Virus record (IMG/VR): IMGVR_UViG_3300044491_000820
Coordinates: 1 to 24,275 of that record
Length of the DNA: 24,275 nucleotides
Source of the DNA: a virus
Direction: 5' to 3' (one strand)
Within the stretch, counting starts at the first letter, position 1. Each line of letters opens with the position of its first letter. The translations under genes were made by a program, and so were the position numbers. Of this stretch, positions 1 to 23,039 are shown piece after piece. The notes below the pieces were generated by a model, which worked only from the letters and a program-made list of their open reading frames with translations, was not told where the DNA came from and did no database searches.

Positions 1-791
1 CCTTGGCCACGACCTAGTGGATCCTGATTAGAATTTAGATGACTGATAATCATCTTCTTTACTGAATCATTATTATGTTCTTGATGTGCCGCGCTGGCGA
101 GTTTAGTAGCAACTCTATCCTCTACTGAGGCACCCTCACTCCCAACGTATGTCCAGTGCCATCCACCTGGTGACAATCTAAAGTTCTCCTCATCAGGTAA
201 GTCCCTCTTCATGTCAGTGAGTGTGTATTTCTCTAAGAAAGAGAAGTCAAACATCTTTGTTCCTATCCATTTTGGATAGTCTTCATAGTCAAAATCAAGA
301 GTTTGTGACCTATAAACACCTGTCTTTTCAACATAGTTCAGGTAGCACATACAATACTCTTGAGCAAAGTTATAAACTTTACCAGGAGTATAGAAGTCAG
401 TCATGTTTTCAATGACTTCTGGGTTAGGAATCTCATCAAGATCACTCCAAATGATGACATCCTCAGAGTCACAGACGGTATCAAGAAAGTCTGCAATACT
501 ATTCTTCTGAAAAGCATCATTCTGATGACACCTTACAGGTGTATTGTATCGTCTCCCCAGTTCATCTAATTGTTGATCTGTGGGGAGTGGTACAACATTG
601 TGAATAATCTTGTCTTGGAACTTCTCGAACCTATCTTTGTTCTCAAGATAGTAAAGTGGTTTGTCCAAACCTGAGAATGTCTTGGTCGCTTCATTGATAA
701 CAAAATGATCAACAAAGGGATAGAGTAGATTCAATCTGACTTCAAGAAGATCCAGTTCATTAAAGAACAAGAATACATCAAATATTTTCAT
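1..791 (-). CDS. GT17-family glycosyltransferase, partial (3' end outside the window)
   Basis: The minus-strand frame opens with ATG at 791 and stays open to the window edge, giving about 263 residues without a stop. The N-terminus MKIFDVFLFFNELDLLEVRL, followed by a segment around FVINEATKTFSGLDKPLYY and the acidic motif WSDLDEIPNP, matches glycosyltransferase family 17 (beta-1,4-N-acetylglucosaminyltransferase MGAT3-like). The DLDE stretch is the likely metal/nucleotide-sugar site. These enzymes transfer a sugar from a nucleotide donor to a glycan. It starts 2 bases after the stop of the FkbM-type methyltransferase and is the last visible gene of the sugar cassette, so it probably acts on the glycan that cassette makes. 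Donor and acceptor cannot be read from the sequence. The family call is firm; the C-terminus is not visible. Confidence 0.85.
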   Translation of the reverse strand, partial: MKIFDVFLFFNELDLLEVRLNLLYPFVDHFVINEATKTFSGLDKPLYYLENKDRFEKFQDKIIHNVVPLPTDQQLDELGRRYNTPVRCHQNDAFQKNSIADFLDTVCDSEDVIIWSDLDEIPNPEVIENMTDFYTPGKVYNFAQEYCMCYLNYVEKTGVYRSQTLDFDYEDYPKWIGTKMFDFSFLEKYTLTDMKRDLPDEENFRLSPGGWHWTYVGSEGASVEDRVATKLASAAHQEHNNDSVKKMIISHLNSNQDPLGRGQ

Positions 792-793
792 TT

Positions 794-1549
794 TCAACTA
801 TTGACAAGATTATATACTTTTTCAGATAATTCATTCTTAATTGCTACCAAATTACATCCACTAGCTTCAATCATATCTTGACGAATCCTTTGATAAATTT
901 CATCATTTAATTTTGTAAGCATTTGATCATTGTGTGGATAATATGGATGTGCAGGTTCTACTCTAAGTAGAAATAAAGACCATACATCTTTATCAAACCA
1001 ACCCACTAGGTCATCAGGATTTAGATTTCTATCTAACATTGTAGATGCAAATTCAAACTGAACAATATCAGTTTTATTATTAATTATATTTTTTCCTCCA
1101 TTAAATACATCAATTTCCATACCCTCAATATCAACTTTTAAAAAGTCAATGTGATCGATATCATTTTCTTCACAATAACCATCAAGAGTTTTTATGGGAA
1201 ATACAACTCCTTGACTATGTGATCTAGTATGAATTGTTCTAAAAACAAATGATTGAGTATTGGGGTAGTATTCTAGTTCTCCTTCCTTTTCTCCGAGACC
1301 AAAATCATTCAAAGACACTGAAACATTGATTCCATCAGGAGCTTCTAAAGATTCTATTTGATCAATAGCATTATTTAAAAATTCAGGGACTGGTTCAAAT
1401 AAATGAAACGATCTAGAATCGTCAGTAGAGTTTCTAAGATATTCAACATCATCTCTAGATCCAATATCAAAGACAACTTTTATCTCTGATTTAATTTTAT
1501 TAAAAAAATCAATCTCAACACTGGGTTGGTATTCAAATGGTTTAGTCAT
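794..1549 (-). CDS. FkbM-family SAM-dependent methyltransferase
   Basis: A 251-residue protein starting at ATG 1549. It carries a SAM-binding motif I (VVFDIGSRDD), an acidic motif II region (FHLFEPVPEF), and the FkbM hallmark FLKVDIEGMEIDVFNGG with TLDGYCEE just before it. FkbM-type enzymes O-methylate sugars or polyketides; within this glycosyltransferase cassette a sugar O-methylation is the natural reading. It lies 27 bases downstream of the preceding methyltransferase gene and no clear Shine-Dalgarno is visible. By eye the gene is visibly richer in A+T than its neighbours (one sampled 60-base line is about 23% GC against about 35% in the next gene), with many AAT, ATT and TTT codons. That suggests it joined the cassette separately. 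Substrate unknown. Confidence 0.85.
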   Translation of the reverse strand: MTKPFEYQPSVEIDFFNKIKSEIKVVFDIGSRDDVEYLRNSTDDSRSFHLFEPVPEFLNNAIDQIESLEAPDGINVSVSLNDFGLGEKEGELEYYPNTQSFVFRTIHTRSHSQGVVFPIKTLDGYCEENDIDHIDFLKVDIEGMEIDVFNGGKNIINNKTDIVQFEFASTMLDRNLNPDDLVGWFDKDVWSLFLLRVEPAHPYYPHNDQMLTKLNDEIYQRIRQDMIEASGCNLVAIKNELSEKVYNLVNS

Positions 1550-1576
1550 GGTTTGTACTCAAAATGTTTCTTTAGA

Positions 1577-2167
1577 TCAGGTCGAAATAATAATCAGTCT
1601 ATCGTCGTATCCGCCAAAATCACAGACATAAGCATCATCTTGAAATTCTTCTGGAACATGTGGGAAGATAATGTCTGGGTTGTATGAGACATCTTCGATG
1701 ATAACATATCCACCTTTGTTCATCTTGGGAAGATACAATTCCAGAAGTTTCTGGTGACTCTCAGGAGTGTGAGGACCATCATCGATGAGGATGTCAATAC
1801 CACCATCAATCTTATCTACCATTTCCTGAGTGTATGCATCAGAGTCAACGAACTGAACACCATCAGATAACCAGTCTTCAACATATAGTTTTTCTTCTTT
1901 GGTGCCACCGAGTTCTTGCAGAAACTTAAAGTTATCAATACCAATGATCGTTGCTCTCTTAGAGAAAAACTCTTTCCATAACTTCAAAGAAGCTCCAGAA
2001 CGGACACCAATCTCAACCAAAGTGATTTTCTTATTTCTCAGTGGTTCAAACTTCTCTTGATAGAATCCATCAACAAATGTCTTTGGGGTTCCTTTATCTG
2101 TCCCGTATCTTGGGTTTGTCGTAATGTTCAGGTTGTATTCTTTTAGAATTTCTTGTAATGTTTTCAT
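1577..2167 (-). CDS. Class I SAM-dependent methyltransferase, MycE-like sugar O-methyltransferase type
   Basis: A 196-residue protein. The pattern YGTDKG, then KFEPLRNKKITLVEIGVRSG, SLKLWKEFF, IIGID, then ILIDDGPHTPESH and GGYVIIEDV is that of metal-dependent macrolide/sugar O-methyltransferases (MycE/TylF-like). In that family the acidic pair of the DDG-H motif coordinates a divalent metal beside the sugar hydroxyls. Motif I (VEIGVRSG, about residues 51-58) binds SAM. The ATG at 2167 follows the stop of the GT11 gene by 3 bases, so translation is probably coupled. With the FkbM gene next door the cassette has two methyltransferases, which suggests a multiply methylated sugar. Methylation position and substrate are not readable from sequence. 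Confidence 0.8.
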   Translation of the reverse strand: MKTLQEILKEYNLNITTNPRYGTDKGTPKTFVDGFYQEKFEPLRNKKITLVEIGVRSGASLKLWKEFFSKRATIIGIDNFKFLQELGGTKEEKLYVEDWLSDGVQFVDSDAYTQEMVDKIDGGIDILIDDGPHTPESHQKLLELYLPKMNKGGYVIIEDVSYNPDIIFPHVPEEFQDDAYVCDFGGYDDRLIIIST

Positions 2168-2170
2168 AAT

Positions 2171-3082
2171 TCAATTCTCAATAACAGTCCATTCTTCGGG
2201 ATAAAGGTCACGACAATCATTTACTGCCTCTAGGATAGGTCCATACCAGTGTTCAGGAACGATGACAGAGTTGGTCCGACCCTTCTGTAACCAAGCTCCC
2301 CACCATCCCAGAGAGGAAGAAGAGAGAATAGCTCCATTACATAAAGACATTAGACACAGGTCAGTATATGGAACCTTAGAACGTTTGTGAGATCCATCTC
2401 CCTCCAAACACAGGTGTTCATATTCAGGAACATCCGTATTTATTAAGAATCTATCATCGTCAAAGAACTCTTGTTCTGCACACCACTCAGGATCATCAGA
2501 ACAAACGAGGACATATGCATTTTCATCAAAGTGCTCAAGGGCCCTTTTATAATAATCAAAGGTCATCATACGATAGTAATCCTCTCGTCCCACATTGTCA
2601 CCACGACGAACATGAAGAAAGAGAATGTTCTCAAATGAAGAGATAAATTCATTACAAGGTTCAAGAACTTCATCCTTGAATGCAAAGTCTGATCGAATCT
2701 CTTGTTCAATATGTTTGAAATATTTCTCAGTTTGGAGATACCCATCAAGGTTTGTTCCATCCTCAAAATTATTGAAGAGATTCTCATCAAAACAATAACA
2801 ACTTTCAGTTACATTCTCAATACCAGGATTACTACCCACCAATGCACCAAAAGATCCCATGGATTGTGGGGATACATTCCTATTCACAAATCCAATGTTC
2901 TTGTCCTTTAGGCCTGCTAATTTAAACGGGTGATGAATACCATAGTTAGCAAAGGTATCATGGTCATCAGGTGGAATGCACCAGTCATATCCATGATGTG
3001 CTGCAATTCCCCTCAATCCAGCATACTGAAAAAGTTGGTTTCCGAAACGACCATTCGTTCCGAGACGATCATATCCAATCAT
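2171..3082 (-). CDS. GT11-family glycosyltransferase (alpha-1,2-fucosyltransferase-like)
   Basis: A 303-residue protein starting at ATG 3082, which overlaps the dehydrogenase stop by 4 bases (ATGA). The N-terminal GRFGNQLFQYAGLRGIA (about residues 11-27), the donor-binding HVRRGDN (157-163, the HxRxGD motif of GT11) and the C-terminal SSSSLGWWGAWL (254-265) are diagnostic of the alpha-1,2-fucosyltransferase fold. Family members transfer L-fucose from GDP-fucose, but related enzymes use other GDP-sugars. Here the cassette's first gene resembles GDP-mannose 3,5-epimerase, whose product GDP-L-galactose is a close analogue of GDP-L-fucose, so a galactosyl donor is a fair alternative. It is probably cytosolic or membrane-peripheral; no signal peptide is visible. 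Confidence 0.87.
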   Translation of the reverse strand: MIGYDRLGTNGRFGNQLFQYAGLRGIAAHHGYDWCIPPDDHDTFANYGIHHPFKLAGLKDKNIGFVNRNVSPQSMGSFGALVGSNPGIENVTESCYCFDENLFNNFEDGTNLDGYLQTEKYFKHIEQEIRSDFAFKDEVLEPCNEFISSFENILFLHVRRGDNVGREDYYRMMTFDYYKRALEHFDENAYVLVCSDDPEWCAEQEFFDDDRFLINTDVPEYEHLCLEGDGSHKRSKVPYTDLCLMSLCNGAILSSSSLGWWGAWLQKGRTNSVIVPEHWYGPILEAVNDCRDLYPEEWTVIEN

Positions 3083-4233
3083 AGGTTTACAATGAAAATA
3101 TCTTCAGTGATATTAAACTTGTTGTCCACAAATCTTACCCTATCACCATAGGTTTGGTCAAGGTATTCAGAGATTTGAGGTGTGACCCTTCTGTCGTTCT
3201 GAATATAAACCTTATATCCTCTGTCTAGGAGGTCTAGAGCCAAACGATACTGTTGACTCTCTGTGAGAATATCTGTCCCCTTCTTGTAGGTAATATACTC
3301 AAAGTAGTATGGGAGTTTGTGTGAGTTCATTGTATCCCAATAATCACATACGATCTTCGCATGTTCGTTATTGAAACCATCTGTAACATAACCTAGGTTA
3401 TACTCTAGTCCTACACCCTTAGCGAAGTGTGCGAAGGCTCTGTTGTCTCTGGGAAGACAAGGACCACCATAACCTACACCCCAACCAAGATACTTCTTAC
3501 CGATACGACTATCACATCCAACAGCACTTAGGACTGCGGTAACCTCATCACCACATCCTGCCATATGAAGGACATCACCTAACATATTAGCGTAACTAAT
3601 CTTAGTTGTAAGGAAACAATTGACTGCAATCTTAGTAATCTCTGCAGACTTTGTACTCATAGTACAAACAATTGCTCTGTTGATTTGAATCTTCTTGTAG
3701 AGATTATCGATATCCTTTACGGTTGTATCGTTCTCCATAGATTGGTCAATACCAAGAAGAACCATATCGGCCTTCTTAAGATCACTCACAATACTACCCT
3801 GTGCAATAAACTCAGGGTTGTACATTACCTTCACATTGTTAGGAAGTTGTGAAGCGAATTGATTACAATCACCAGGGTTGGTAGTACAACCAATCACAAG
3901 ATACTTTCTCTTCTTTACATCACTAAACTCTGATACAACTTGCCACACAGCAGATACATCATATGATCCATCATCATTGGATGGAGTTTGAACAAGAGTA
4001 TAGATGAGATCACACTCATCAATTACTTCTTTGTTGTTAGTTGTTGCTCTAAAATTCTTTGATACCCTGAGTAGATCTTCTACTTCAGGTTCATTAGTTG
4101 TGATCTTTTTCTGGTTCAGATCATTTACATAATCCTCACGGATGTCTGATACCAGAACATCATAACCAGCTTGTTCACAAAGAAGGGCAAAACAGATACC
4201 CAATCTGCCTGCTCCGATAACTCCAATTTTCAT
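3079..4233 (-). CDS. UDP-glucose / GDP-mannose 6-dehydrogenase family protein
   Basis: A 384-residue NAD-dependent nucleotide-sugar dehydrogenase. Residues 1-12 form the Rossmann motif (MKIGVIGAGRLG); TPSNDDGSYD (about 83-92) is the NAD/sugar contact loop; NPEFIAQGS (139-147) replaces the more common NPEFLREG; the catalytic lysine is K201 in TKIAVNCF; the thiohemiacetal-forming cysteine is C259 in GGPCLPRD. Members oxidise C6 of the sugar to a carboxylate, using two NAD+ per turn. ATGA overlaps join it to the NAD synthetase upstream and the GT11 gene downstream. The family is clear; whether the substrate is UDP-glucose, GDP-mannose, an N-acetylated sugar or the product of the epimerase cannot be told from motifs alone. 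The altered EFIAQG loop leaves substrate open. Confidence 0.88.
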   Translation of the reverse strand: MKIGVIGAGRLGICFALLCEQAGYDVLVSDIREDYVNDLNQKKITTNEPEVEDLLRVSKNFRATTNNKEVIDECDLIYTLVQTPSNDDGSYDVSAVWQVVSEFSDVKKRKYLVIGCTTNPGDCNQFASQLPNNVKVMYNPEFIAQGSIVSDLKKADMVLLGIDQSMENDTTVKDIDNLYKKIQINRAIVCTMSTKSAEITKIAVNCFLTTKISYANMLGDVLHMAGCGDEVTAVLSAVGCDSRIGKKYLGWGVGYGGPCLPRDNRAFAHFAKGVGLEYNLGYVTDGFNNEHAKIVCDYWDTMNSHKLPYYFEYITYKKGTDILTESQQYRLALDLLDRGYKVYIQNDRRVTPQISEYLDQTYGDRVRFVDNKFNITEDIFIVNL

Positions 4234-4976
4234 AGTGTGAATGTAGGAATAGGTTGCATCTTGTGTTGATTCATTTTATTGAACCTTTGTAGAACTTCCA
4301 AACCAGGACCACTACCAGTTTCCATTGCTTCTTCTAGTTCAACATAGGAAGCACCAAGTTGATCCTCATCTGTTCGTTCATCATCCCATAGTCCGTCAGT
4401 TGGTTTAGCTTCAATAATCCTTGGATCAACTCCAAAGAATTTACCAAGTTCCCATACTTCAGTCTTATAAAGATCAGCGATAGGTGCAACATCCACCCCG
4501 CCGTCACCATATTTAGTGTAAAATCCTACACCATAATCTTCGACTTTATTACCAGTACCTACCACAAGACCTTTATGTTTTCCAGCAATCTGATACAAAG
4601 TAACCATACGAAGTCGTGAACGTGTATTGGCTAAAGAATGATTGTCTACATTGTCACTGTCAACACCAATAGTGTGACGAAAAGATTCAAATATATTAGT
4701 GAGATCATATCTCAATACAATCACATTTGAATAAATCCTCTCCAACCAATCAAGATGAATCTCAGAAAGTTCTTTTTGTTGTTCGTTCTGATGAATAGGC
4801 ATCCCTATAGCGTATACAGGGTATCCAGTTTCAGCTGCTAGAGTTGATGATACAGCAGAATCAATACCACCAGACACACCAACTACAAAACATTCAGACG
4901 AACTTGTATCTTTATAGTCACTCAACCAAGAAGAAATATCATCCTTGAGTTGATTGTAATCATTGATTCTGTTCAT
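4230..4976 (-). CDS. nadE: Ammonia-dependent NAD+ synthetase
   Basis: A 248-residue adenine-nucleotide alpha-hydrolase-fold enzyme without a glutaminase domain, near the usual length of NH3-dependent NadE. It shows the PP-loop SGGIDSA (35-41), GTGNKVEDYG (140-149), the NaAD-binding run TKYGDGG (154-160) followed by APIADLYKTEV, and KPTDGLWDDERTDEDQLG near the C-terminus. The reaction is deamido-NAD+ + ATP + NH3 to NAD+. ATG 4976 lies inside the end of the epimerase gene (17-base overlap) with GAGGT upstream, and the stop overlaps the dehydrogenase start. Placement between two NAD-using sugar enzymes suggests a local NAD+ supply. A sugar amidotransferase of the PP-loop family was considered, but the NadE-specific motifs fit much better. 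Confidence 0.93.
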   Translation of the reverse strand: MNRINDYNQLKDDISSWLSDYKDTSSSECFVVGVSGGIDSAVSSTLAAETGYPVYAIGMPIHQNEQQKELSEIHLDWLERIYSNVIVLRYDLTNIFESFRHTIGVDSDNVDNHSLANTRSRLRMVTLYQIAGKHKGLVVGTGNKVEDYGVGFYTKYGDGGVDVAPIADLYKTEVWELGKFFGVDPRIIEAKPTDGLWDDERTDEDQLGASYVELEEAMETGSGPGLEVLQRFNKMNQHKMQPIPTFTL

Positions 4977-6060
4977 TTATTTTAACCTCAATCCATTGAT
5001 AAGTCTTACGAATACCCTCTTCAAGGGTTTGAGAATAATCCCAACCAAGTTTCTCACGAATAAGATCATTGTTTGAGTTACGACCACGGACACCCAGAGG
5101 TCCATCGATATGGATCTTCTGAACTTCCTTACCAGAAACTTTAGCAGCAGTTTCTACCAATTGATTGATAGTTACCATCTCCTCAGAACCAATATTCACC
5201 GGTCCCATAAAGTCACTATCCATTAATCGTCTAGTTGCTTCAATACATTCATCAATGAACAAGAAGGAACGAGTCTGTAAGCCATCTCCCCACACCTCGA
5301 TTGCTCCACCTGACTCCGGGAGGTAAGCAACTTTACGGCAGATTGCAGCTGGTGCTTTCTCTCTTCCACCGTCCCAGGTTCCTTCTGGTCCAAAAATGTT
5401 GTGGTAACGAGCCACCCTGACAGGAATGCCATGGTTGCGATTGTAAGCGAAATATAGACGTTCAGAAAAGAGTTTCTCCCATCCATATTCCGAATCAGGG
5501 TTTGCTGGATATGCTGATTCTTCACGGCAGTCAGGGTTATCAGGGTCAAGTTGGTTATGTTCTGGATACATACACGCTGAACCAGAATAGAAGATCTTAG
5601 TGGGTTGATCAAGTGCAGGACGATTACATTCAGTCCAGTCCTTAACTACACCATCAAAGGTCTCATTAAGTTTACGAACTTCTTCCAATACATTTAGATT
5701 GATAGACACAGAGTTATGCATGATGTCTGCATCATTCTCACCAGTGAATACGAATCCTGCACCACCCATATCAGCAGCAAACTGATAGATTTCATCAAAG
5801 GGTTGAACATACTGATATGGAACATTTCCGTTATAGTTACCAGAATATCCTTTAAACTGAATAACTTCATTAACAACTCTCACATCGCGCAGATCTTCCT
5901 GAACAAATTCATTGGCTTCAGTTTCACCAAATTCTGGATACTTAACATCAACTCCACGCACCCAGTATCCCTCGGAACGCAGTCTCCTAACCATGTGACT
6001 ACCAATAAATCCACCTGCACCAAGAACTAGTGCAGTTTTTGTATACTCACTCATTGTCAT
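4960..6060 (-). CDS. GDP-mannose 3,5-epimerase-like NAD-dependent epimerase (extended SDR)
   Basis: A 366-residue extended short-chain dehydrogenase. The NAD motif is GAGGFIGSH (14-22); AADMGGAGF (96-104), YSGSACMYPE (158-167), Tyr192/Lys196 (YGWEK), GGREKAPAA (231-239), WGDGLQTRSFLFIDEC and PVNIGSEEMV follow in order. This is the pattern of plant GDP-mannose 3,5-epimerase. The cysteine in SAC-YPE (C163) and the lysine in GGREK (K235) correspond to its acid/base pair. That enzyme makes GDP-L-galactose and GDP-L-gulose from GDP-mannose. Start: ATG 6060 or the in-frame ATG 6054; no Shine-Dalgarno is visible and the leader from the promoter at 6076-6104 is only about 9 bases. It is the first gene of the sugar cassette. 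The fold is certain; the precise reaction is inferred from these residues. Confidence 0.85.
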   Translation of the reverse strand: MTMSEYTKTALVLGAGGFIGSHMVRRLRSEGYWVRGVDVKYPEFGETEANEFVQEDLRDVRVVNEVIQFKGYSGNYNGNVPYQYVQPFDEIYQFAADMGGAGFVFTGENDADIMHNSVSINLNVLEEVRKLNETFDGVVKDWTECNRPALDQPTKIFYSGSACMYPEHNQLDPDNPDCREESAYPANPDSEYGWEKLFSERLYFAYNRNHGIPVRVARYHNIFGPEGTWDGGREKAPAAICRKVAYLPESGGAIEVWGDGLQTRSFLFIDECIEATRRLMDSDFMGPVNIGSEEMVTINQLVETAAKVSGKEVQKIHIDGPLGVRGRNSNNDLIREKLGWDYSQTLEEGIRKTYQWIEVKINEQNQ

Positions 6061-15521: not shown

Positions 15522-16040
15522 TCAGACAGGTGGGTTTCCGTATACAGGTGCGTTACCCGTGGTGATACCAGACATAGCAACCAGAACCTCTTTTTTAACT
15601 CTCAGAGCTCCTTCATTGTCGTTATAGGTTGTAACACCAACCCAACCTACACCAGCCTCATATGCGGTTCCGCTGGTGGCATCTACACCACCTTCAGCAA
15701 CACCATAGACTCGTGAGTCCACATCTGATCTGGTCTCAGAATAGGTCTGATCCAGAATGGATGACTTAGGAAGTTGAGATACACTGAAGTTTGTTCCTGC
15801 AATCGCAACACCACTCAAACCCATGGTGGATCCAATTGTACAAGAAATAGTTGATGCGATTGAAACGATTACTGCATCACCAATGTAAATGTTACTGTCA
15901 CCGAATCTGATAACATCACCTTCTTGTGGTTCACCAGTTCCGCCGAAAGTAGTGCCAGAACCAGTAACTACACCAGTACCATAGTTAAGAGATACGGTTC
16001 CAGTAGATCCCACATTATCATTATTGCCCCAAAGTGCCAT
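15522..16040 (-). CDS. Probable virion structural protein (Gly/Thr-rich, beta-sheet type)
   Basis: 172 residues with the N-terminus MALWGNNDNVGSTGTVSLNY and repeated short beta-like strands rich in Gly, Thr, Ser and Val (TGVVTGSGTTFGGTGEPQEG, DVIRFGDSNIYIG). The C-terminal part GVGWVGVTTYNDNEGALRVK then KEVLVAMSGI resembles C-termini of virion proteins I recall from T4-like cyanophages. A GATAAATA late-type promoter lies about 34 bases upstream. No enzyme motif is present. The structural role is inferred from composition, promoter and recollection of family members, not from a specific fold match. Confidence 0.7.
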   Translation of the reverse strand: MALWGNNDNVGSTGTVSLNYGTGVVTGSGTTFGGTGEPQEGDVIRFGDSNIYIGDAVIVSIASTISCTIGSTMGLSGVAIAGTNFSVSQLPKSSILDQTYSETRSDVDSRVYGVAEGGVDATSGTAYEAGVGWVGVTTYNDNEGALRVKKEVLVAMSGITTGNAPVYGNPPV

Positions 16041-16332: not shown

Positions 16333-16875
16333 TCACTTTTTCTTCATTTTGTCATAACGTTTGACTTCACCAGGTCTGAGTCTATCCTTAACCTCTTTGG
16401 CTTTGTCATAGAACTTACCAAACTTCATCCTTTTATCTTGTTCTTTATGACGTTTCTTCTCATCATCATACTTCTTCATTAGTTTGGTATCTGAGTAATC
16501 AACTGACTCACCCATTCCTCCGCCATTGCCGTTTCCATTACCGTTCTTGGTTTCAGAATCGTCATCAACAGTATGTCCATTCTCCTTACGAAGCATACCA
16601 GCTGGACCAACTACCTTGAATCCCTTGGGAATTGGCTTACATTTCTTGTCAGTATAACAGTAATAATATCCTGCCTTACAGGAATTATGGCCCTCTTCCA
16701 CCTCTACCTTATTAGGTAGTCCTTTATGTTTCGTTTTAGCAAACTTTTTCACGTCGGACTTGGACATGGAGGTAGCAGCTTTGGAAACCTCAGACGACGG
16801 CGAGGCCATTTCACCTTTCTGAGCCGCTCTAACCATCCCGAAGAATCTTTGTTGGGCTTTTGACTTTGCTGGCAT
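16333..16875 (-). CDS. DUF3008-like basic protein with a cysteine module
   Basis: 180 residues, strongly basic. Residues 1-16 (MPAKSKAQQRFFGMVR) match the start of DUF3008-type proteins, with Ser/Lys-rich helices after it (SKAATSMSKSDVKKFAKTKH). A middle cysteine module, NSCKAGYYYCYTDKKCKPIP (three Cys), is followed by a Gly/Asn-rich linker (NGNGNGNGGG) and a Lys/Asp-rich helical tail (KKYDDEKKRHKEQDKRMKFG). GGAG 8 bases before ATG 16875 supports the start, which follows the upstream stop by 3 bases. High charge and location in the late block suggest a DNA-associated or internal virion protein; this is inference. Confidence 0.75.
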   Translation of the reverse strand: MPAKSKAQQRFFGMVRAAQKGEMASPSSEVSKAATSMSKSDVKKFAKTKHKGLPNKVEVEEGHNSCKAGYYYCYTDKKCKPIPKGFKVVGPAGMLRKENGHTVDDDSETKNGNGNGNGGGMGESVDYSDTKLMKKYDDEKKRHKEQDKRMKFGKFYDKAKEVKDRLRPGEVKRYDKMKKK

Positions 16876-16878
16876 GAT

Positions 16879-18120
16879 TCAATCTCCACGATATCTCGAA
16901 CCAGGGCGAGGACCAGTTGCATCAGTCATTTTCTGTGCATCTGTTCTAGTATCCTTGGATGAATTCTTAGCCATTTGTTTAATCTGAGCCGCACGTTGTT
17001 TCTGACGGTCACCAGGTTCATATGGTTTTCGTTTTGCGTTTGCCTCGCGAGAGATTCTCATCTGGTCATCTATACTCAATCCTTCCATATGACCAGAGGG
17101 TAACTTACCTTGTTTCTGCATCTGAAGTCTCTGTCTTGAGAGCATATGTTGTTTTCTCATCATCTGTTCTTTAGCAGCCAACTGTCTCTTTGTCTGAGCA
17201 TCGTTGGTTGAAGTTGAACCAGCTGCCTCATCAACTTCTTCTACTTCCTCTTTTTTCACAGTAGGAGCCATGACTTTCATATGAGGATCATACTTAACAT
17301 CAGTCTTCTTAGTGGGTTTGGTGTCTTTGATAGAAGGAGCATCCTTAGGGAAATCACCCTCTTCAATCTCAACCATCTCTAGAATCTGACCACCGAGTTG
17401 TTCGATAGCTTCAGTCATTCCTTGTGGAGGATTGATGACAATCTTATTCTTTATTTTCTTTTCAGAGATTTTCTCACGGGATTTCTCATCAGTTTTAGGT
17501 TTTGAAGAGGTCACATCAACCAATTCACGAATTTCCCCCCTCCAATCAGAGAATGACTCTTTTGCAGTTTTTGTTCTAGTTGTAGAATACAATCTCTTAT
17601 TACCTACTCCAGGAATAAACTCACCAAGTTCACCCTTTGCCTTATCATTTTTGTCAGTATCTCCATCTACATCAGTATCAATCCTCTTAACTGCTTTCTT
17701 TACTAATTTCTTGATGTCTCCCGTTGGAACTTCATGAGGTTTATGTGCCTGTCCATGAATTTCTGTAATTTCCGTATTCTCTTCTTGTTCGTCCATAGGA
17801 CAGTCCTTAATCCCATGTTCGGGACATTCTTTACCTTCTTTGGTGTGATTACACTTTTTTTCTTCAACCATTTCGGTTGATTCCATGAATCCAAGTTTTT
17901 GTCTCAGAGCAGTTCTCTCAGCTCCACTTAGTTGATTCTTGGCAACATAATCATTGAACGCCTTTGGAAGGGGAACGTTGTCCCTACGAGCCTGATATCT
18001 GATAGCTTTTGCGTGAGATCCAACGTCTACAGATTGTTGTGGGTTCTGTCCTGCTCCATCCTCTTGTTCTTTGAGAGTTTGGAGGTAGATATTACTCAAC
18101 TCCTTGAGTTCAATGTCCAT
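16879..18120 (-). CDS. Large charged phage protein with Cys/His and calcium-loop-like motifs (putative internal or structural protein)
   Basis: 413 residues, no signal or membrane segment. Modules: an N-terminal amphipathic start ending LKEQ (16-19); a helical module at 36-77 (HAKAIRYQARRDNVPLPKAF, LSGAERTALRQKLG); a Cys/His cluster C90, H92, C99, H102, C107 (CNHTKEGKECPEHG) that could bind zinc; an EF-hand/dockerin-like loop D148-D159 (DTDVDGDTDKND); an ESFSDWRGEIRELV segment; a Lys/Glu-rich middle with IEEG; and a Gln/Arg-rich basic tail. Several sites fit a prohead-protease pattern ([IL]-x-E before a small residue). A CATAAATA late-type promoter lies 30 bases upstream. Probably a capsid-associated protein; the exact role is unknown. 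Confidence 0.75.
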   Translation of the reverse strand: MDIELKELSNIYLQTLKEQEDGAGQNPQQSVDVGSHAKAIRYQARRDNVPLPKAFNDYVAKNQLSGAERTALRQKLGFMESTEMVEEKKCNHTKEGKECPEHGIKDCPMDEQEENTEITEIHGQAHKPHEVPTGDIKKLVKKAVKRIDTDVDGDTDKNDKAKGELGEFIPGVGNKRLYSTTRTKTAKESFSDWRGEIRELVDVTSSKPKTDEKSREKISEKKIKNKIVINPPQGMTEAIEQLGGQILEMVEIEEGDFPKDAPSIKDTKPTKKTDVKYDPHMKVMAPTVKKEEVEEVDEAAGSTSTNDAQTKRQLAAKEQMMRKQHMLSRQRLQMQKQGKLPSGHMEGLSIDDQMRISREANAKRKPYEPGDRQKQRAAQIKQMAKNSSKDTRTDAQKMTDATGPRPGSRYRGD

Positions 18121-18132
18121 GAGACCAATTTA

Positions 18133-19422
18133 CTACTTTTTCCTGTACTTATTTATGAAATCTCTTCCACTTGGACCCCCATAAGCCTTTGCTCCAGGTT
18201 GAAGATTGGTCTTATCACCTTTATTGAACCCTGGTGTGAGGTCTGCCAGGTTCTTAAAGTACCCATCTGTACCTATCAAAGTGTTTGGTTTACCAGGAAC
18301 TCTCTTCTTTCTGGCCATTTTGACCTCAGTATACTCACGGATATCCCTAATCCAGGACTTGAACATTACATTATCCTCTGTCACACAGATCAAATAGTTA
18401 GTTCCTCTACGGATAACCTTACCAACCAGTCCAGTGTTCAGATTTTCAACCAGTTGATCAACATTGAAGATTTTACCATTAATATAATTCTCTCTAAGGT
18501 TCTTCCAGTCGAATCTGGGTGCAATTTCCCACAAATTCCAACTCTCTTTAGTGACCTTCATCCTCTTTTTGAGGTTGGTCATCATCATTTTAGCTGTTTT
18601 ATCATCAATCAAGTCTGGAATACCAGTACGATACGTTTCAAAATCATCTTCCATAGCCGCTTTTCTCATCTTAGAAGCGGACATTCCCTCTACACCCTCT
18701 GCATCTGGGTCTCTTTCACCAGCCGATACAGTCTCCACGTCAGAAAAATCATAGAGTTTTCCATTGTAGTCCCCTGAGAGCTTGGTGAACTCTTTAACCC
18801 TGTCACCACCGACCACAATTTTAACACTTGAAAATCCATCTTCATGAGCCTGTTTCAAAACATCAAAAATAGTCTTAGAGTTGGGGTCATTGACAATACT
18901 ACCCGCATGATCGGGATACATTTGCTTCATGACATCAATCTTTTCGTCAGGATCATACGGATTTTTCTTTGGATCGTGTGATCTAGAAGGATAAATCCTC
19001 AAAGAACCCTTACCTGCTGATTTTTTAGCGGCGTCAAGTAGTTTCTGATGACCTATTGTGGGGGGATTGAACCTTCCAAAGGTGACGGTGAGAGGTCCAA
19101 GATCCTCTTTAGGTGACCCGTCAGCTCTCGTAGGCGCTGGCATTCTCCTTGGCTTTCCGTCGCCAAACGTTCCAAACTCTCCTTGTTGTTGTCCATCACT
19201 TTCAGGCTCTTGTTGAGTGGTTTGGGTCTTTCCTGATGGTTCCTCCTGTGGAGGTTCCTCCTTAGTGAGCATCTTAAGAGTTCCGCGACTGGTTACAGCC
19301 ACTCTATTCCCCTCTTTATCATACCAATTACCGTGCCCATCCCCTGTTAGACCCTTAGATTGAGCCTGATCGGAGATAGATGACGTTCTCGCTTCCTTGA
19401 GAAAGTTGAAAAAACTCTTCAT
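18133..19422 (-). CDS. Nucleotidyltransferase with a T4-like capsid-targeting N-terminus
   Basis: 429 residues. Residues 1-11 (MKSFFNFLKEA) resemble the T4 capsid-targeting peptide MKTYQEFI-EA, and LKE before Ala11 fits the prohead-protease rule. Residues 24-52 hold a DGHGNWYDKEGNR module, then a Pro/Gln-rich linker. At 109-290 lies a nucleotidyltransferase domain of the NMNAT/cytidylyltransferase superfamily: TFGRFNPPTIGHQ (114-126, with the HxGH-like TIGH), SRSHDPKKNP, VVGGDRVKEF (203-212) and MSASKMRKA (247-255, the ISxTxxR-like motif). A C-terminal module GLVGKVIRRGTNYLICVTED follows. It would adenylylate or cytidylylate a small phosphate substrate; nicotinamide mononucleotide is one option. 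It may be packaged in the head. The substrate is not determined. Confidence 0.85.
   Translation of the reverse strand: MKSFFNFLKEARTSSISDQAQSKGLTGDGHGNWYDKEGNRVAVTSRGTLKMLTKEEPPQEEPSGKTQTTQQEPESDGQQQGEFGTFGDGKPRRMPAPTRADGSPKEDLGPLTVTFGRFNPPTIGHQKLLDAAKKSAGKGSLRIYPSRSHDPKKNPYDPDEKIDVMKQMYPDHAGSIVNDPNSKTIFDVLKQAHEDGFSSVKIVVGGDRVKEFTKLSGDYNGKLYDFSDVETVSAGERDPDAEGVEGMSASKMRKAAMEDDFETYRTGIPDLIDDKTAKMMMTNLKKRMKVTKESWNLWEIAPRFDWKNLRENYINGKIFNVDQLVENLNTGLVGKVIRRGTNYLICVTEDNVMFKSWIRDIREYTEVKMARKKRVPGKPNTLIGTDGYFKNLADLTPGFNKGDKTNLQPGAKAYGGPSGRDFINKYRKK
18150..18157 (-). promoter_or_regulatory. T4-type late promoter, CATAAATA
   Basis: CATAAATA on the minus strand lies inside the last codons of the nucleotidyltransferase gene and 30 bases upstream of ATG 18120. 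It matches the NATAAATA core and the distance seen at the other late-type sites. Confidence 0.6.
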
Positions 19423-19444: not shown

Positions 19445-19451
19445 TATTTAG
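19445..19451 (-). promoter_or_regulatory. Weak late-promoter-like CTAAATA before the nucleotidyltransferase gene
   Basis: CTAAATA lies 23 bases before ATG 19422, close to the end of the methylase gene. It differs from NATAAATA at one conserved base, so it is a weak candidate. No other promoter is visible for this gene, which would otherwise depend on the early transcript of the methylase. Confidence 0.35.
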
Positions 19452-19455
19452 AAGA

Positions 19456-20379
19456 TCAGACGGACAACAAATTCTCAATCACATTGTTCTTAGGAATTTC
19501 TTCAGGATGTAGACGACGTTGATAGTTCATGATCAGAAGTTCTTCCTTCTTATTCTTGTTCTCCTTACGGTGAGCGAGACTATAACGAAACTCAAAGTTC
19601 TCCATGTGAAAGTCAGCAAACTGTTCACGCAACCAAGGGTGTTCATTATAGGTAATCATCCAGTTGTGAGTAGTATCCTTACATGATTTGACAAAATCTT
19701 CATGACAAAAACTAGTATGCATCTCCTTGTCCTTACCATACAACATATCTTTGATGAGATATGGAGGGTCAAGGAACACAAATACGTCCTCACCAGGAGC
19801 TTCCATCAGGTCACGATAGTCCTGATTGGTGATCCTCCAGGGTTGAATGATCTCACTGATGTTAGCAAGTTTCTTGATCTTACTCTGTGAGAAGATAGTG
19901 TTCTTGTAGGAGTCACGAATGAAAGCGTTCTTGTTCTGTTCAGTGAAACCACCGAAACTAGAACGATTCAGGACATAGAAAGCAGTGGCAAGATCAAAGT
20001 CATCATCAGAAGTATCGATAAGACCCCTCATGTTAGCGTAGAGAGTTCGGTGTTTCTTCTCCAGTTCCTCTACACCCTCAGCACGACAAGCTTCATCCTT
20101 GAGTTCAAGGAGTCGATTGATAAGGGAGTCAGGATTCTTCTGGAGTTGTGTCCAGAAAGCAAACAGATTGTAGTACAAATCATTGACCCAGACAGGAACA
20201 TCTGGATACATGACAGAAAAGGTAAGAGCACAGGATCCACCACCGAGGAAACCCTCACGATATTCCTTGATGTTCTCAGGGAGCATGTTCTTACGGAACA
20301 GATAGTAAATGATCCGTGACTTACCACCAGGATAACGGAGGACAGTCGGATACTTACGACGTTCAGTAGTCTTGGCCAT
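19456..20379 (-). CDS. dam: Dam-type DNA adenine-N6 methyltransferase
   Basis: ATG 20379 is preferred to an in-frame TTG at 20388; 307 residues. Motif I is RYPGGKSRI (15-23, the FxGxK type of Dam enzymes), followed by EGFLGGGSCALTF and WVNDLYYNLFAFW. The catalytic motif IV is DPPY (204-207) in VFLDPPYLIK. The motif order I-then-IV is that of the alpha class to which Dam, T4 Dam and DpnIIA belong, so GATC is the probable target. It would methylate phage DNA against host nucleases. It has its own early-type promoter just after a terminator, unlike the late genes around it, so it is probably expressed early. Confidence 0.9.
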   Translation of the reverse strand: MAKTTERRKYPTVLRYPGGKSRIIYYLFRKNMLPENIKEYREGFLGGGSCALTFSVMYPDVPVWVNDLYYNLFAFWTQLQKNPDSLINRLLELKDEACRAEGVEELEKKHRTLYANMRGLIDTSDDDFDLATAFYVLNRSSFGGFTEQNKNAFIRDSYKNTIFSQSKIKKLANISEIIQPWRITNQDYRDLMEAPGEDVFVFLDPPYLIKDMLYGKDKEMHTSFCHEDFVKSCKDTTHNWMITYNEHPWLREQFADFHMENFEFRYSLAHRKENKNKKEELLIMNYQRRLHPEEIPKNNVIENLLSV

Positions 20380-20401
20380 GTGTTTCAATCTCTATAGTAT
20401 A

Positions 20402-20455: not shown

Positions 20456-21781
20456 TCACATCATTTTGATGTAGGGTCCAGACACTCCTTTGATACTAGA
20501 TCCAGCATATCTATACATGTCTTCCACAAGTTGATCCATTTTCTTCTTGTCGCTCAATGGTAGATTATCAAACAGTTCCTGTACAAGGAACTTAGATTGT
20601 CTATAATTTACATTAGAAGACAGGATCATCGTGACAATGGCTTCCTTGTCTTTGCTTGGAACAAATCCATGTGTTACCATAGACTTTGCCATATTCTTAG
20701 CTGTTGTATCACTATTTTTTGTAGCTATGTTTCTAGATGGAATGTTGTCAGTAATTTGTTTGATTCCATGAGCCTTGAGAACATCATTAAGAGGACCATG
20801 AGATATCTTACCATGTCTTGCAGTACCACCAGGAACAAGAACCTCACCAGACCAACCACCAGAAGCTGTGAATGTTCTGAAGTTAATCTTCATTTGACTA
20901 TTACCCTTCTTCATTACGATATAACCACTGGTGGATGCAGGTGGTGACTCAACACCGACATAAGAAAAGGTAGGAGCGGATTTGTCAGTAGGGAAGTTTA
21001 TTTCACTGATATTTCCAGTACTACCAAGTTTCTTCAGTGATACACCAATAACCTTCTCATCCTTTAGATATTCATACATCAAAGCATTTAGACCAAGGAT
21101 AGTGTTCTCCTCTTTCAATGGACTTGGGTCAAATCCAGGTTTGATAAGGTAGATATCAGCAGGAGACCACTTGTTTAGATTGACAGAAAGACCTTCTTTC
21201 TGTTTGACCTTAGTGAAAGCTGCCTCAATAATAGCAACCTTTCTACTTCCCCTGTGACATTCAAATGATTTACCAGTATATCTTTGTCTCAAAAGGTTAG
21301 CTCCTTTGACTGATGACATTACCCAGTCATCAGTCAGTTTCTTCTCAACATCCTGAAGAGTTGAAGTAACATCTGCCTTTGTCATTGCTTTGGTGAAGTT
21401 ACCTGCTGTCAAATCAGCCTCTGTAATGTTCCCATTCTTAACATTAAATGCAATTGAACAGTACACAGCCTGTGCCGACTCAGCTAGAGCTGTAGATACC
21501 TTAGCATCAGAAGCTGTCTTATAAATGATAGTGAATGTAGACTTGTCACTTAATTTTACAATCGTACAAGGATATCCAGAATGAGAAGATATTATTTTCT
21601 CCTCAAACCCGATTTGTTTTTGTTTGAATTTCTTTTTAACTTTATCTGATGCTTCTACTCTGTTCTGGGCCCTGACAATAAGATTCGTTGAACGAGGACC
21701 AGCAGATTTAATATCGGTCTTCTCACCCCCAAGAACTTCGTTCAAGGCTATATGAAACTTATCAGTTGGGACTCCACTCAT
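20456..21781 (-). CDS. Phage protein of unknown function, 441 residues
   Basis: A large soluble alpha/beta protein beginning MSGVPTDKFHIALNEVLGGE. Recognisable segments are TSTLQDVEKKLTDDWVMSSV, RKVAIIEAAFTKVKQKEGLS, LNKWSPADIYLIKPGFDP and a Gly-rich FRTFTASGGWSGEVLVPGG followed by TARHGKISHG. WSPADIYLI and the WSGEV-then-ARHGK pair recall a family I have seen in T4-like cyanophages, where it is left unnamed; a nuclease-like fold is possible but no catalytic motif can be confirmed. ATG 21781 overlaps the upstream stop (ATGA). A terminator follows it, so it is the last gene of the unit that starts at the TATAAATA near 23068. Confidence 0.75.
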   Translation of the reverse strand: MSGVPTDKFHIALNEVLGGEKTDIKSAGPRSTNLIVRAQNRVEASDKVKKKFKQKQIGFEEKIISSHSGYPCTIVKLSDKSTFTIIYKTASDAKVSTALAESAQAVYCSIAFNVKNGNITEADLTAGNFTKAMTKADVTSTLQDVEKKLTDDWVMSSVKGANLLRQRYTGKSFECHRGSRKVAIIEAAFTKVKQKEGLSVNLNKWSPADIYLIKPGFDPSPLKEENTILGLNALMYEYLKDEKVIGVSLKKLGSTGNISEINFPTDKSAPTFSYVGVESPPASTSGYIVMKKGNSQMKINFRTFTASGGWSGEVLVPGGTARHGKISHGPLNDVLKAHGIKQITDNIPSRNIATKNSDTTAKNMAKSMVTHGFVPSKDKEAIVTMILSSNVNYRQSKFLVQELFDNLPLSDKKKMDQLVEDMYRYAGSSIKGVSGPYIKMM

Positions 21782-21966
21782 TTTTGCAATTCCTCTAAGT
21801 AATCTAATGACACCAACTCACTGTTGTAATCAGGACCAAAGTATTCTTTCACTTTAATCGGTACACCCATAACTGTAGGCCACCCACTCGCGACATGGGT
21901 GTAAATGGTCTCAGTATCCTCGTTCACAAAGTGTGGCCAAGGATACTTACGCTGTCTCAAACTCAT
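21778..21966 (-). CDS. Small protein of unknown function
   Basis: 62 residues from ATG 21966, which shares one base with the stop of the upstream gene (TGATG); an in-frame TTG one codon earlier is not needed. The sequence MSLRQRKYPWPHFVNEDTET and ASGWPTVMGVPIKVKEYFGP is aromatic- and proline-rich and looks globular. Overlap with both neighbours strongly supports translation. No family recognised. Confidence 0.65.
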   Translation of the reverse strand: MSLRQRKYPWPHFVNEDTETIYTHVASGWPTVMGVPIKVKEYFGPDYNSELVSLDYLEELQK

Positions 21967-23039
21967 CAATCTTCCCAGGAGTCAACAACCTCAATAATAC
22001 GATCTAATTCAGCATCTGTAAAGCTCTCACCCATTTTCTTCTTGAATTCTGCCTTACGGAACTTGAGGTACTCTCTATCCTTGTTACCCATACGGGCTTG
22101 ACCCTGAGGTTTCTTGGAACCACCAGCAGGGTTAGTACCAGTGTTCTTTGCTTTGTAGGAGTAGTTAGCTCCACTACCCTTAGAATCACCAGAGATCATC
22201 TTACCAGCGTCTGAACGGGAGTCCTGATACTGTTTCTCGGTCTGACCATGCTTACCCTTGTAGAGTTCCTCTACGTTCTGAACTTCCTCTTTCTTGAACT
22301 GAGGATGATCATCCAGTTTCATACCACGCTTCTTCTCAAGACGCTTCTTTTGCTCATCAGAATCATTACCTCTGATGTTCTTACTGATTGCCTTACGGCG
22401 TTTCATCAGATAAGAATCAGTTGAATCCTTCTTACCATCGTTATTGACATCACCGTCCTCTTTCCCTACGGGATCGAGTTTAGCTTCACTCATCTTCTTG
22501 GCTACATTAACAGCCCCACGAGCTACCTTCATAGCCCCCTTCTTAATCATACCTTTGAGACCAGACTTAGCCTTAGCCTTCATCTCAGTACCAGCTCTCT
22601 GAGCTTGGGCTGACATGTTCTTGGTGGATTGTCCAGCTCTTCTAGCCTTCATTTTAGCTAAAGCCTTAGCGTCTCTGTAAGCTCCGTATGCCTTGACTGC
22701 GCCCTTAGAGGCTTTCATCTTGACCTTACCAATGGCTGACTTCAGACCCTTCTCAAGTCTGTCAGTCTTCTTAGACTTAGCACTCTCAGTATCATGACCG
22801 AAAGTTACCTTAGCTTCAGAGATAACGGTAGTAAAAATTGATTCACACTCTTCTACAGTATATCCCTCCTCAAAGAGTTCTTGAAGAACCTCCTCGCAGA
22901 TATCCTCTAAATCAGGATCACTAATCATGGAGAGATCCATCTCTGCGATTTCATCTCTCTTTGAAAGTAATTCTTCTCTAGCTTCTGTATTATGAACAGC
23001 CGAATAGGCTTCCATAAAGTTACGCATTGATGAAGACAT
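21966..23039 (-). CDS. Putative internal head protein: acidic propeptide, lysine-rich core, dockerin-like loop
   Basis: 357 residues. Residues 1-75 are acidic (21 Asp/Glu against 4 Lys/Arg by my count), starting MSSSMRNFMEAYSAVHNTEA. VISE at 72-75 followed by Ala76 fits the T4 prohead-protease rule [IL]-x-E before a small residue. Residues 76-185 are histone-H1-like (about 30 Lys/Arg against 7 Asp/Glu, Ala- and Gly-rich, KAKSGLKGMIKKGAMKVARG) and end at a second, less perfect site, KMSE then Ala186. D197-D208 (DVNNDGKKDSTD) matches an EF-hand/dockerin loop. The rest is charged and disordered-looking. A perfect TATAAATA lies 29 bases upstream. A packaged DNA-condensing protein is the best reading; no homologue has been confirmed. 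Confidence 0.72.
   Translation of the reverse strand: MSSSMRNFMEAYSAVHNTEAREELLSKRDEIAEMDLSMISDPDLEDICEEVLQELFEEGYTVEECESIFTTVISEAKVTFGHDTESAKSKKTDRLEKGLKSAIGKVKMKASKGAVKAYGAYRDAKALAKMKARRAGQSTKNMSAQAQRAGTEMKAKAKSGLKGMIKKGAMKVARGAVNVAKKMSEAKLDPVGKEDGDVNNDGKKDSTDSYLMKRRKAISKNIRGNDSDEQKKRLEKKRGMKLDDHPQFKKEEVQNVEELYKGKHGQTEKQYQDSRSDAGKMISGDSKGSGANYSYKAKNTGTNPAGGSKKPQGQARMGNKDREYLKFRKAEFKKKMGESFTDAELDRIIEVVDSWED

Follow-up and report, generated by a model that had tools for sequence, protein, structure and literature searches.

We propose that a nucleotidyltransferase (NTase) encoded by a T4-like cyanomyovirus is packaged in the phage head by a T4-type targeting leader, a reading to which we assign a probability of roughly 0.8. 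The gene lies on the minus strand at positions 18133-19422 of the 24,275-base stretch analyzed here (the window), an IMG/VR record whose closest relatives are Synechococcus and Prochlorococcus myoviruses. Since this record is a 24-kb fragment of the phage genome, the isolate genomes of S-SCSM1, S-CREM2 and S-SZBM1 stood in for a whole-genome comparison. As it appears to bear a removable head-loading tag like that of T4, the enzyme is probably injected with the viral DNA.

We confirmed that the open reading frame is real: it begins with an ATG, includes its stop codon and encodes 429 residues starting with MKSFFNFLKEA. The preliminary description had named the product a nucleotidyltransferase whose start closely resembles the T4 capsid-targeting peptide and, with LKE before Ala, agrees with the gp21 prohead-protease rule. 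The enzymatic assignment is borne out by profile matches to the PHROG 395 cytidyltransferase (E=4e-104) and to Pfam CTP_transf_like over residues 114-214 (29.3 bits against a gathering threshold of 21), and the family counts about 530 phage records. On the minus strand, the capsid-targeting-like peptide (residues 1-11, 19390-19422) is followed by a leader module that we refer to as HGxWYD (residues ~20-53, 19264-19365; pLDDT of ~77-81 in the model) and by a Q/E/P-rich linker (residues 54-108, 19099-19263), which is poorly conserved (mean 1.77 bits over residues 61-108) and modeled at low pLDDT across residues 55-87. The nucleotidyltransferase domain (residues 109-290, 18553-19098) is supported by profile matches, the structural model and fold matches. 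It is followed by a C-terminal domain containing VGKVIRRGTNYLICVTEDNVMFKSWI (residues ~299-375, 18298-18528) and by a conserved basic C-terminus, FINKYRKK (residues 422-429, 18136-18159).

The first 11 residues resemble the T4 peptide closely. The T4 internal proteins IPII and IPIII both start with MKTYQEFIAEA (translated from NC_000866), which is identical to the NTase N-terminus at 5/11 positions and conservatively replaced at the other key ones (S/T, F/Y, L/I). What they share can be written MK-(S/T)-(F/Y)-x-x-F-(L/I)-x-E/A, the last slash marking the cut, with aromatic residues at positions 4 and 7 and an L/I-x-E site. Mutagenesis in T4 has assigned residues 4 and 7 to targeting and residues 8 and 10 to processing, gp21 cleaving after L/I-x-E (PMC9026906). 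In the NTase this site reads L8-K9-E10 followed by A11, and the predicted prohead-protease cut falls between E10 and A11 (bases 19393/19392). Among the NTase relatives the constrained residues are 4, 7, 8 and 10, precisely those that T4 needs. The motif M-K-x-F-x-x-F-(L/I/F/C)-x-E-(A/S) is kept in 79/82 non-redundant relatives, with F4 in 76 and F7 in all of these 79, while E10-A11 is lost in 2/82. Likewise, 27 non-redundant homologues carry F4 (25/27), F7, L/I/F/C8, E10 and A/S11 (27/27 each), and their mean information reaches 3.34 bits at residues 1-11 versus 1.77 in the linker. When a PWM was trained on the N-termini of the cyanophage family alone, with T4 left out, the T4 sequence scored 8.3, a value reached by 5e-5 of shuffled N-termini. 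The resemblance put forward in the preliminary description, including the protease site, was thus upheld.

The similarity to T4 extends to the head itself, a T4-like head with a gp21-type protease being found in this lineage too. The major capsid proteins gp23 of S-SCSM1, S-CREM2 and S-SZBM1 carry FLAE/A, ILTE/A and LLTE/A, respectively, the S-SCSM1 L-x-E/A site lying just ahead of the Pfam Gp23 domain; by analogy with T4, we infer that these are maturation sites. The gp21 of S-SCSM1 is a Peptidase_S77 (E=2.5e-35), and a gp21-type protease was found in 4/6 of the relatives' contigs checked, but not in the 24-kb window. On the other hand, IPII and IPIII are small internal proteins, whereas the NTase is a large enzyme of several domains with a second leader module after the peptide, and beyond the peptide no similarity between them was noted. 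A functional parallel is T4 gpAlt, an ADP-ribosyltransferase that, like the proposed NTase, is a head-packaged enzyme delivered with the DNA. However, gpAlt starts with MELITELFDED (motif score -15.9), its catalysis is unrelated, and no ADP-ribosyltransferase match to the NTase protein was found in Pfam, PHROGs or NCBIfam.

The association of this NTase family with virions has already been published. MS of CsCl-purified virions revealed homologues in S-SCSM1 (ORF91; PMC9602691), S-CREM2 (ORF154, 3 peptides; PMC10665884) and S-SZBM1 (S-SZBM1_140, 2 peptides; PMC9146016). All three have the same kind of start as the window NTase: MKSFLQFLKEA in ORF91, which is 45% identical to it, MKNFSSFLTEA in ORF154 and MRFRQFIIEA in S-SZBM1_140. 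In the S-CREM2 and S-SZBM1 enzymes the module and linker are mostly gone, while the peptide has been retained. One could argue that the NTase, as the product of an auxiliary metabolic gene, is an ordinary late enzyme of the infected cell that ends up in virion preparations as a contaminant, and that its N-terminal helix has some other role. The low peptide counts fit this explanation, the authors of two of the three MS papers concede a possible carry-over of abundant proteins, and the NTase of P-HM2 (183 aa) has no leader. Nevertheless, three virion preparations independently yielded the enzyme, and PMC9146016 lists it as the only enzyme among the 30 virion proteins of S-SZBM1. Moreover, the peptide shows strict conservation at the positions on which targeting and processing depend in T4, and it recurs on other virion-detected proteins. 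It is also missing from distant homologues outside the lineage, in Caulobacter phage Cr30 and Vibrio phage EniLVp02; since these forms and that of P-HM2 do without it, the tag is not part of the NTase fold. We therefore regard contamination as very unlikely.

The preliminary description had proposed to compare N-termini across virion proteins, which we did in the three isolate genomes. With the caveat, valid for all the enrichment tests that follow, that the tag patterns were fixed after some of the sequences had already been seen, 6 of the 219 annotated N-termini of S-CREM2 fit the anchored pattern and 5 of these 6 belong to virion-detected proteins (p=0.003; p=0.011 without the NTase, ORF154). 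These are ORF6 (a Pfam S-adenosylmethionine lyase), ORF13, ORF14 (kinase-like), ORF136 and ORF154. Across the three cyanophages, 9/657 N-termini reached a PWM score of at least 7, all others scoring at most 1.1, and 6/9 are virion-detected (p=0.002; p=0.026 once NTase family members were removed). The remaining three, S-SZBM1_191, S-SZBM1_192 and S-SCSM1_30, were not detected in virions; they are small proteins whose genes lie close to terL, within the cluster of head genes. Of the 657 N-termini, 8 follow the rule taken from T4 (aromatic residues at positions 4 and 7, a hydrophobic one at 8 and E at 10), where shuffles predict 0.13; their virion enrichment weakens to p=0.08 when NTase family members are removed. 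Taken together, the three virion preparations, the tag on unrelated virion-detected proteins, the gp23 sites and the gp21-type protease support the head packaging that had been suggested for this enzyme.

Some of these proteins deserve a separate mention. The virion-detected SAM lyase of S-CREM2 (L082, 3837-5081, minus strand) starts with MKDFDSFLEEF and is a candidate injected anti-restriction enzyme. S-SCSM1_93 (L003, 22808-23017) and S-CREM2 ORF12 (L082, 7704-10313, minus strand), both virion-detected, end in peptides resembling the T4 capsid-targeting sequence (CTS), KRTFKEFLEYIE and KTFRDFLN, respectively, hinting that the tag may also exist in a C-terminal version. The name "CRISPR-Cas9" given to ORF12 is doubtful, since Pfam and NCBIfam returned no match for it.

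About 30 nt before the NTase ATG, we found a T4-type late-promoter-like site, TCTAAATA (19445-19452, minus strand), a single base away from TATAAATA, the late promoter of T4. A site of the form [AC]TAAATA is present 18-36 nt upstream of the NTase gene in 53/97 relatives, against 2.5% expected. Late synthesis is expected of a cargo and less so of a purely early metabolic gene. Furthermore, the NTase neighbors in the window match a cassette of S-SCSM1, also surrounding ORF91 there, in which ORF89, 90, 92, 93, 95 and 97 are annotated as virion proteins. All on the minus strand, the window carries a gene in the position of ORF89 (21966-23039; TATAAATA upstream), homologues of ORF90 (20456-21781; 35% identity), ORF92 (16879-18120; CATAAATA upstream) and ORF93, a DUF3008 protein (16333-16875), and a counterpart, by position and N-terminal sequence, of ORF95, a tail fiber/virion protein (15522-16040). 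Comparable sites lie ahead of the ORF89-like, ORF92-like and 15522-16040 genes, whereas none was found before the mazG, primase, nrdA and Dam-like methylase genes. The latter, encoding a Dam-like adenine methyltransferase (19456-20388), interrupts the virion-protein cassette. The ORF89-like protein starts with MSSSMRNFMEAYSAVH and its S-SCSM1 counterpart, a virion protein, with MDSKTFNSLSEAYAAVY; these starts may represent a second type of tag (EAY.AV).

The peptide belongs to a larger leader that is shared with unrelated proteins. Residues 1-60 of the NTase match ACG-2014f gp190 (E=1e-10) and the kinases of MA01 (E=7e-7) and S-CREM2 (E=4e-7), none of which matches the NTase protein outside the leader; the HGxWYD module is common to gp190, the APH-like kinase and S-CREM2 ORF12. 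The virion-detected kinase of S-CREM2, ORF14, whose homologue in S-CRM01 is the virion kinase PKN8, shares both the targeting peptide and the module. It differs in its catalytic domain, and the S-CREM2/MA01 kinases contain the module twice. Conversely, seventeen contigs (L054-L070) matched the NTase query in its C-terminal part alone. In those fully examined, the C-terminal domain forms a protein of ~185-270 aa with the same leader and no NTase domain in between. No NTase match was found at these loci, nor across the whole 215-kb, 62-kb and 84-kb contigs searched, all three of which encode a gp21-type protease.

The existence of leader and C-terminal domain without the NTase domain, including in the 215-kb genome devoid of an NTase match, might indicate that the packaged protein mainly has a structural or DNA-binding role inside the head, with catalysis secondary, as would the conservation of the basic C-terminus (FINKYKKK). 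We consider this unlikely, as few segments of the protein are better conserved than the NTase domain, and none of 23 diverse homologues deviates at R117, H125, S248 or R253. Because the tag and HGxWYD module are common to unrelated proteins and kept without the NTase domain, and given the late-promoter-like site, the NTase probably bears a leader for delivery, behind which different enzymes can be exchanged as cargo. By extension, we think it somewhat probable that in Kyanoviridae CTS plus HGxWYD is a standard two-part leader through which interchangeable enzymes (adenylyltransferase, SAM lyase, kinase and others) are generally loaded, and that a whole set of effectors, predictable from sequence, thereby enters the host with the DNA of these very common marine phages.

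Our model can be summarized as follows. The NTase would be made late, from the T4-type late promoter, and residues MKSFFNFLKE would dock it onto the scaffold core of the prohead. A gp21-type prohead protease would then cut after E10, leaving Ala11 as the mature start, and the mature enzyme would remain in the head with the DNA and enter the host at infection. Residues 1-60, comprising targeting peptide and HGxWYD module, would be a leader serving several cargoes. While the sequence, its conservation and the occurrence of homologues in virion preparations are direct observations, we infer peptide-driven targeting, the cut behind E10 and delivery to the host by analogy with T4.

Cyanophage virion proteomes have repeatedly found this NTase without distinguishing cargo from contaminant, and a T4-type tag offers a mechanism. 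In the accessible text of the S-SCSM1, S-CREM2 and S-SZBM1 papers, the NTases are presented only as virion-associated enzymes, with no description of a targeting peptide or a shared leader. In the literature we searched, we found no mention of the tag, of its agreement with T4 mutagenesis, of its occurrence on further virion proteins or of the modular leader. The tag predicts an exact mature N-terminus, Ala11, which can be searched for in existing raw MS data, and it provides a rule by which further injected proteins of abundant ocean phages can be recognized from their sequence. It would also carry the CTS mechanism, known from small internal proteins of T4, over to enzymes packaged by a distant branch.

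Regarding catalysis, the NTase belongs to the nucleotidyltransferase superfamily without being an established NMNAT, since its sequence matches to NMNAT are weak. It scores above the cut-off of TIGR00125, with TIGH at residues 122-125. None of the NMNAT, NadD and PPAT family models reached its curated cut-off, and the NadM/NadD equivalogs stayed far below theirs (NF003790, 16.3 of 403 bits; TIGR00482, 16.3 of 112 bits); the best relevant PDB profile match has E=0.52 (2qjo). The modeled domain, with a pLDDT mostly of 80-93, looks like an adenylyltransferase of the NMNAT/NadD/PPAT kind: NadM (1.1e-5), PPAT and NadD top its PDB fold matches, although Foldseek did not discriminate NMNAT from PPAT. 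With these enzymes the NTase shares, besides the predicted fold, the GRFxPxxxGH and SxSxxR-type motifs, while differing from them in its phage-specific leader and C-terminal domain. The former motif is GRFNPPTIGH, a (T/H)xGH nucleotide-binding motif containing R117 and H125 (residues 116-125, 19048-19077). The latter is SASKMR, ending in R253 (residues 248-253, 18664-18681), which we take to be the counterpart of the adenylyltransferase ISSTxxR. Its Arg presumably suits NMNAT-type enzymes better than cytidylyltransferases or PPAT.

As fold and motifs are closest to NMNAT/NadD/PPAT, the likeliest activity is the adenylylation of a small phosphorylated metabolite, for example (nicotinate/nicotinamide) mononucleotide, which would take place right after infection; an NMNAT-like activity proper is a tentative guess, to which we give slightly less than even odds. 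Alternatively, a packaged NTase could modify a host macromolecule in an AMPylation-like manner. There is a precedent in T4 Alt, which is injected and modifies the host RNA polymerase (T4 record annotation), and the sub-threshold scores of the metabolic family models leave room for such a role. Yet the fold and motifs match small-molecule adenylyltransferases and protein-AMPylating families gave no match, making this alternative quite improbable. The modeled fold leans towards a metabolite as substrate.

We also considered the NAD synthase NadE (4230-4976) as an NAD-pathway partner of the NTase. It occurs in about a dozen cyanophage or marine virus records versus about 530 for the NTase, in several of them beside sugar-modification genes, and so does not support NAD synthesis. 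In the window, nadE likewise sits among nucleotide-sugar genes, in a glycan/nucleotide-sugar cluster (3-6060, minus strand) encoding a nucleotide-sugar dehydrogenase, an epimerase, a likely glycosyltransferase and methyltransferases. Between 7020 and 8770, six tRNA genes (Met, Ile, Ser, Val, Thr, Arg) surround a fructose-6-phosphate aldolase/transaldolase gene (talC).
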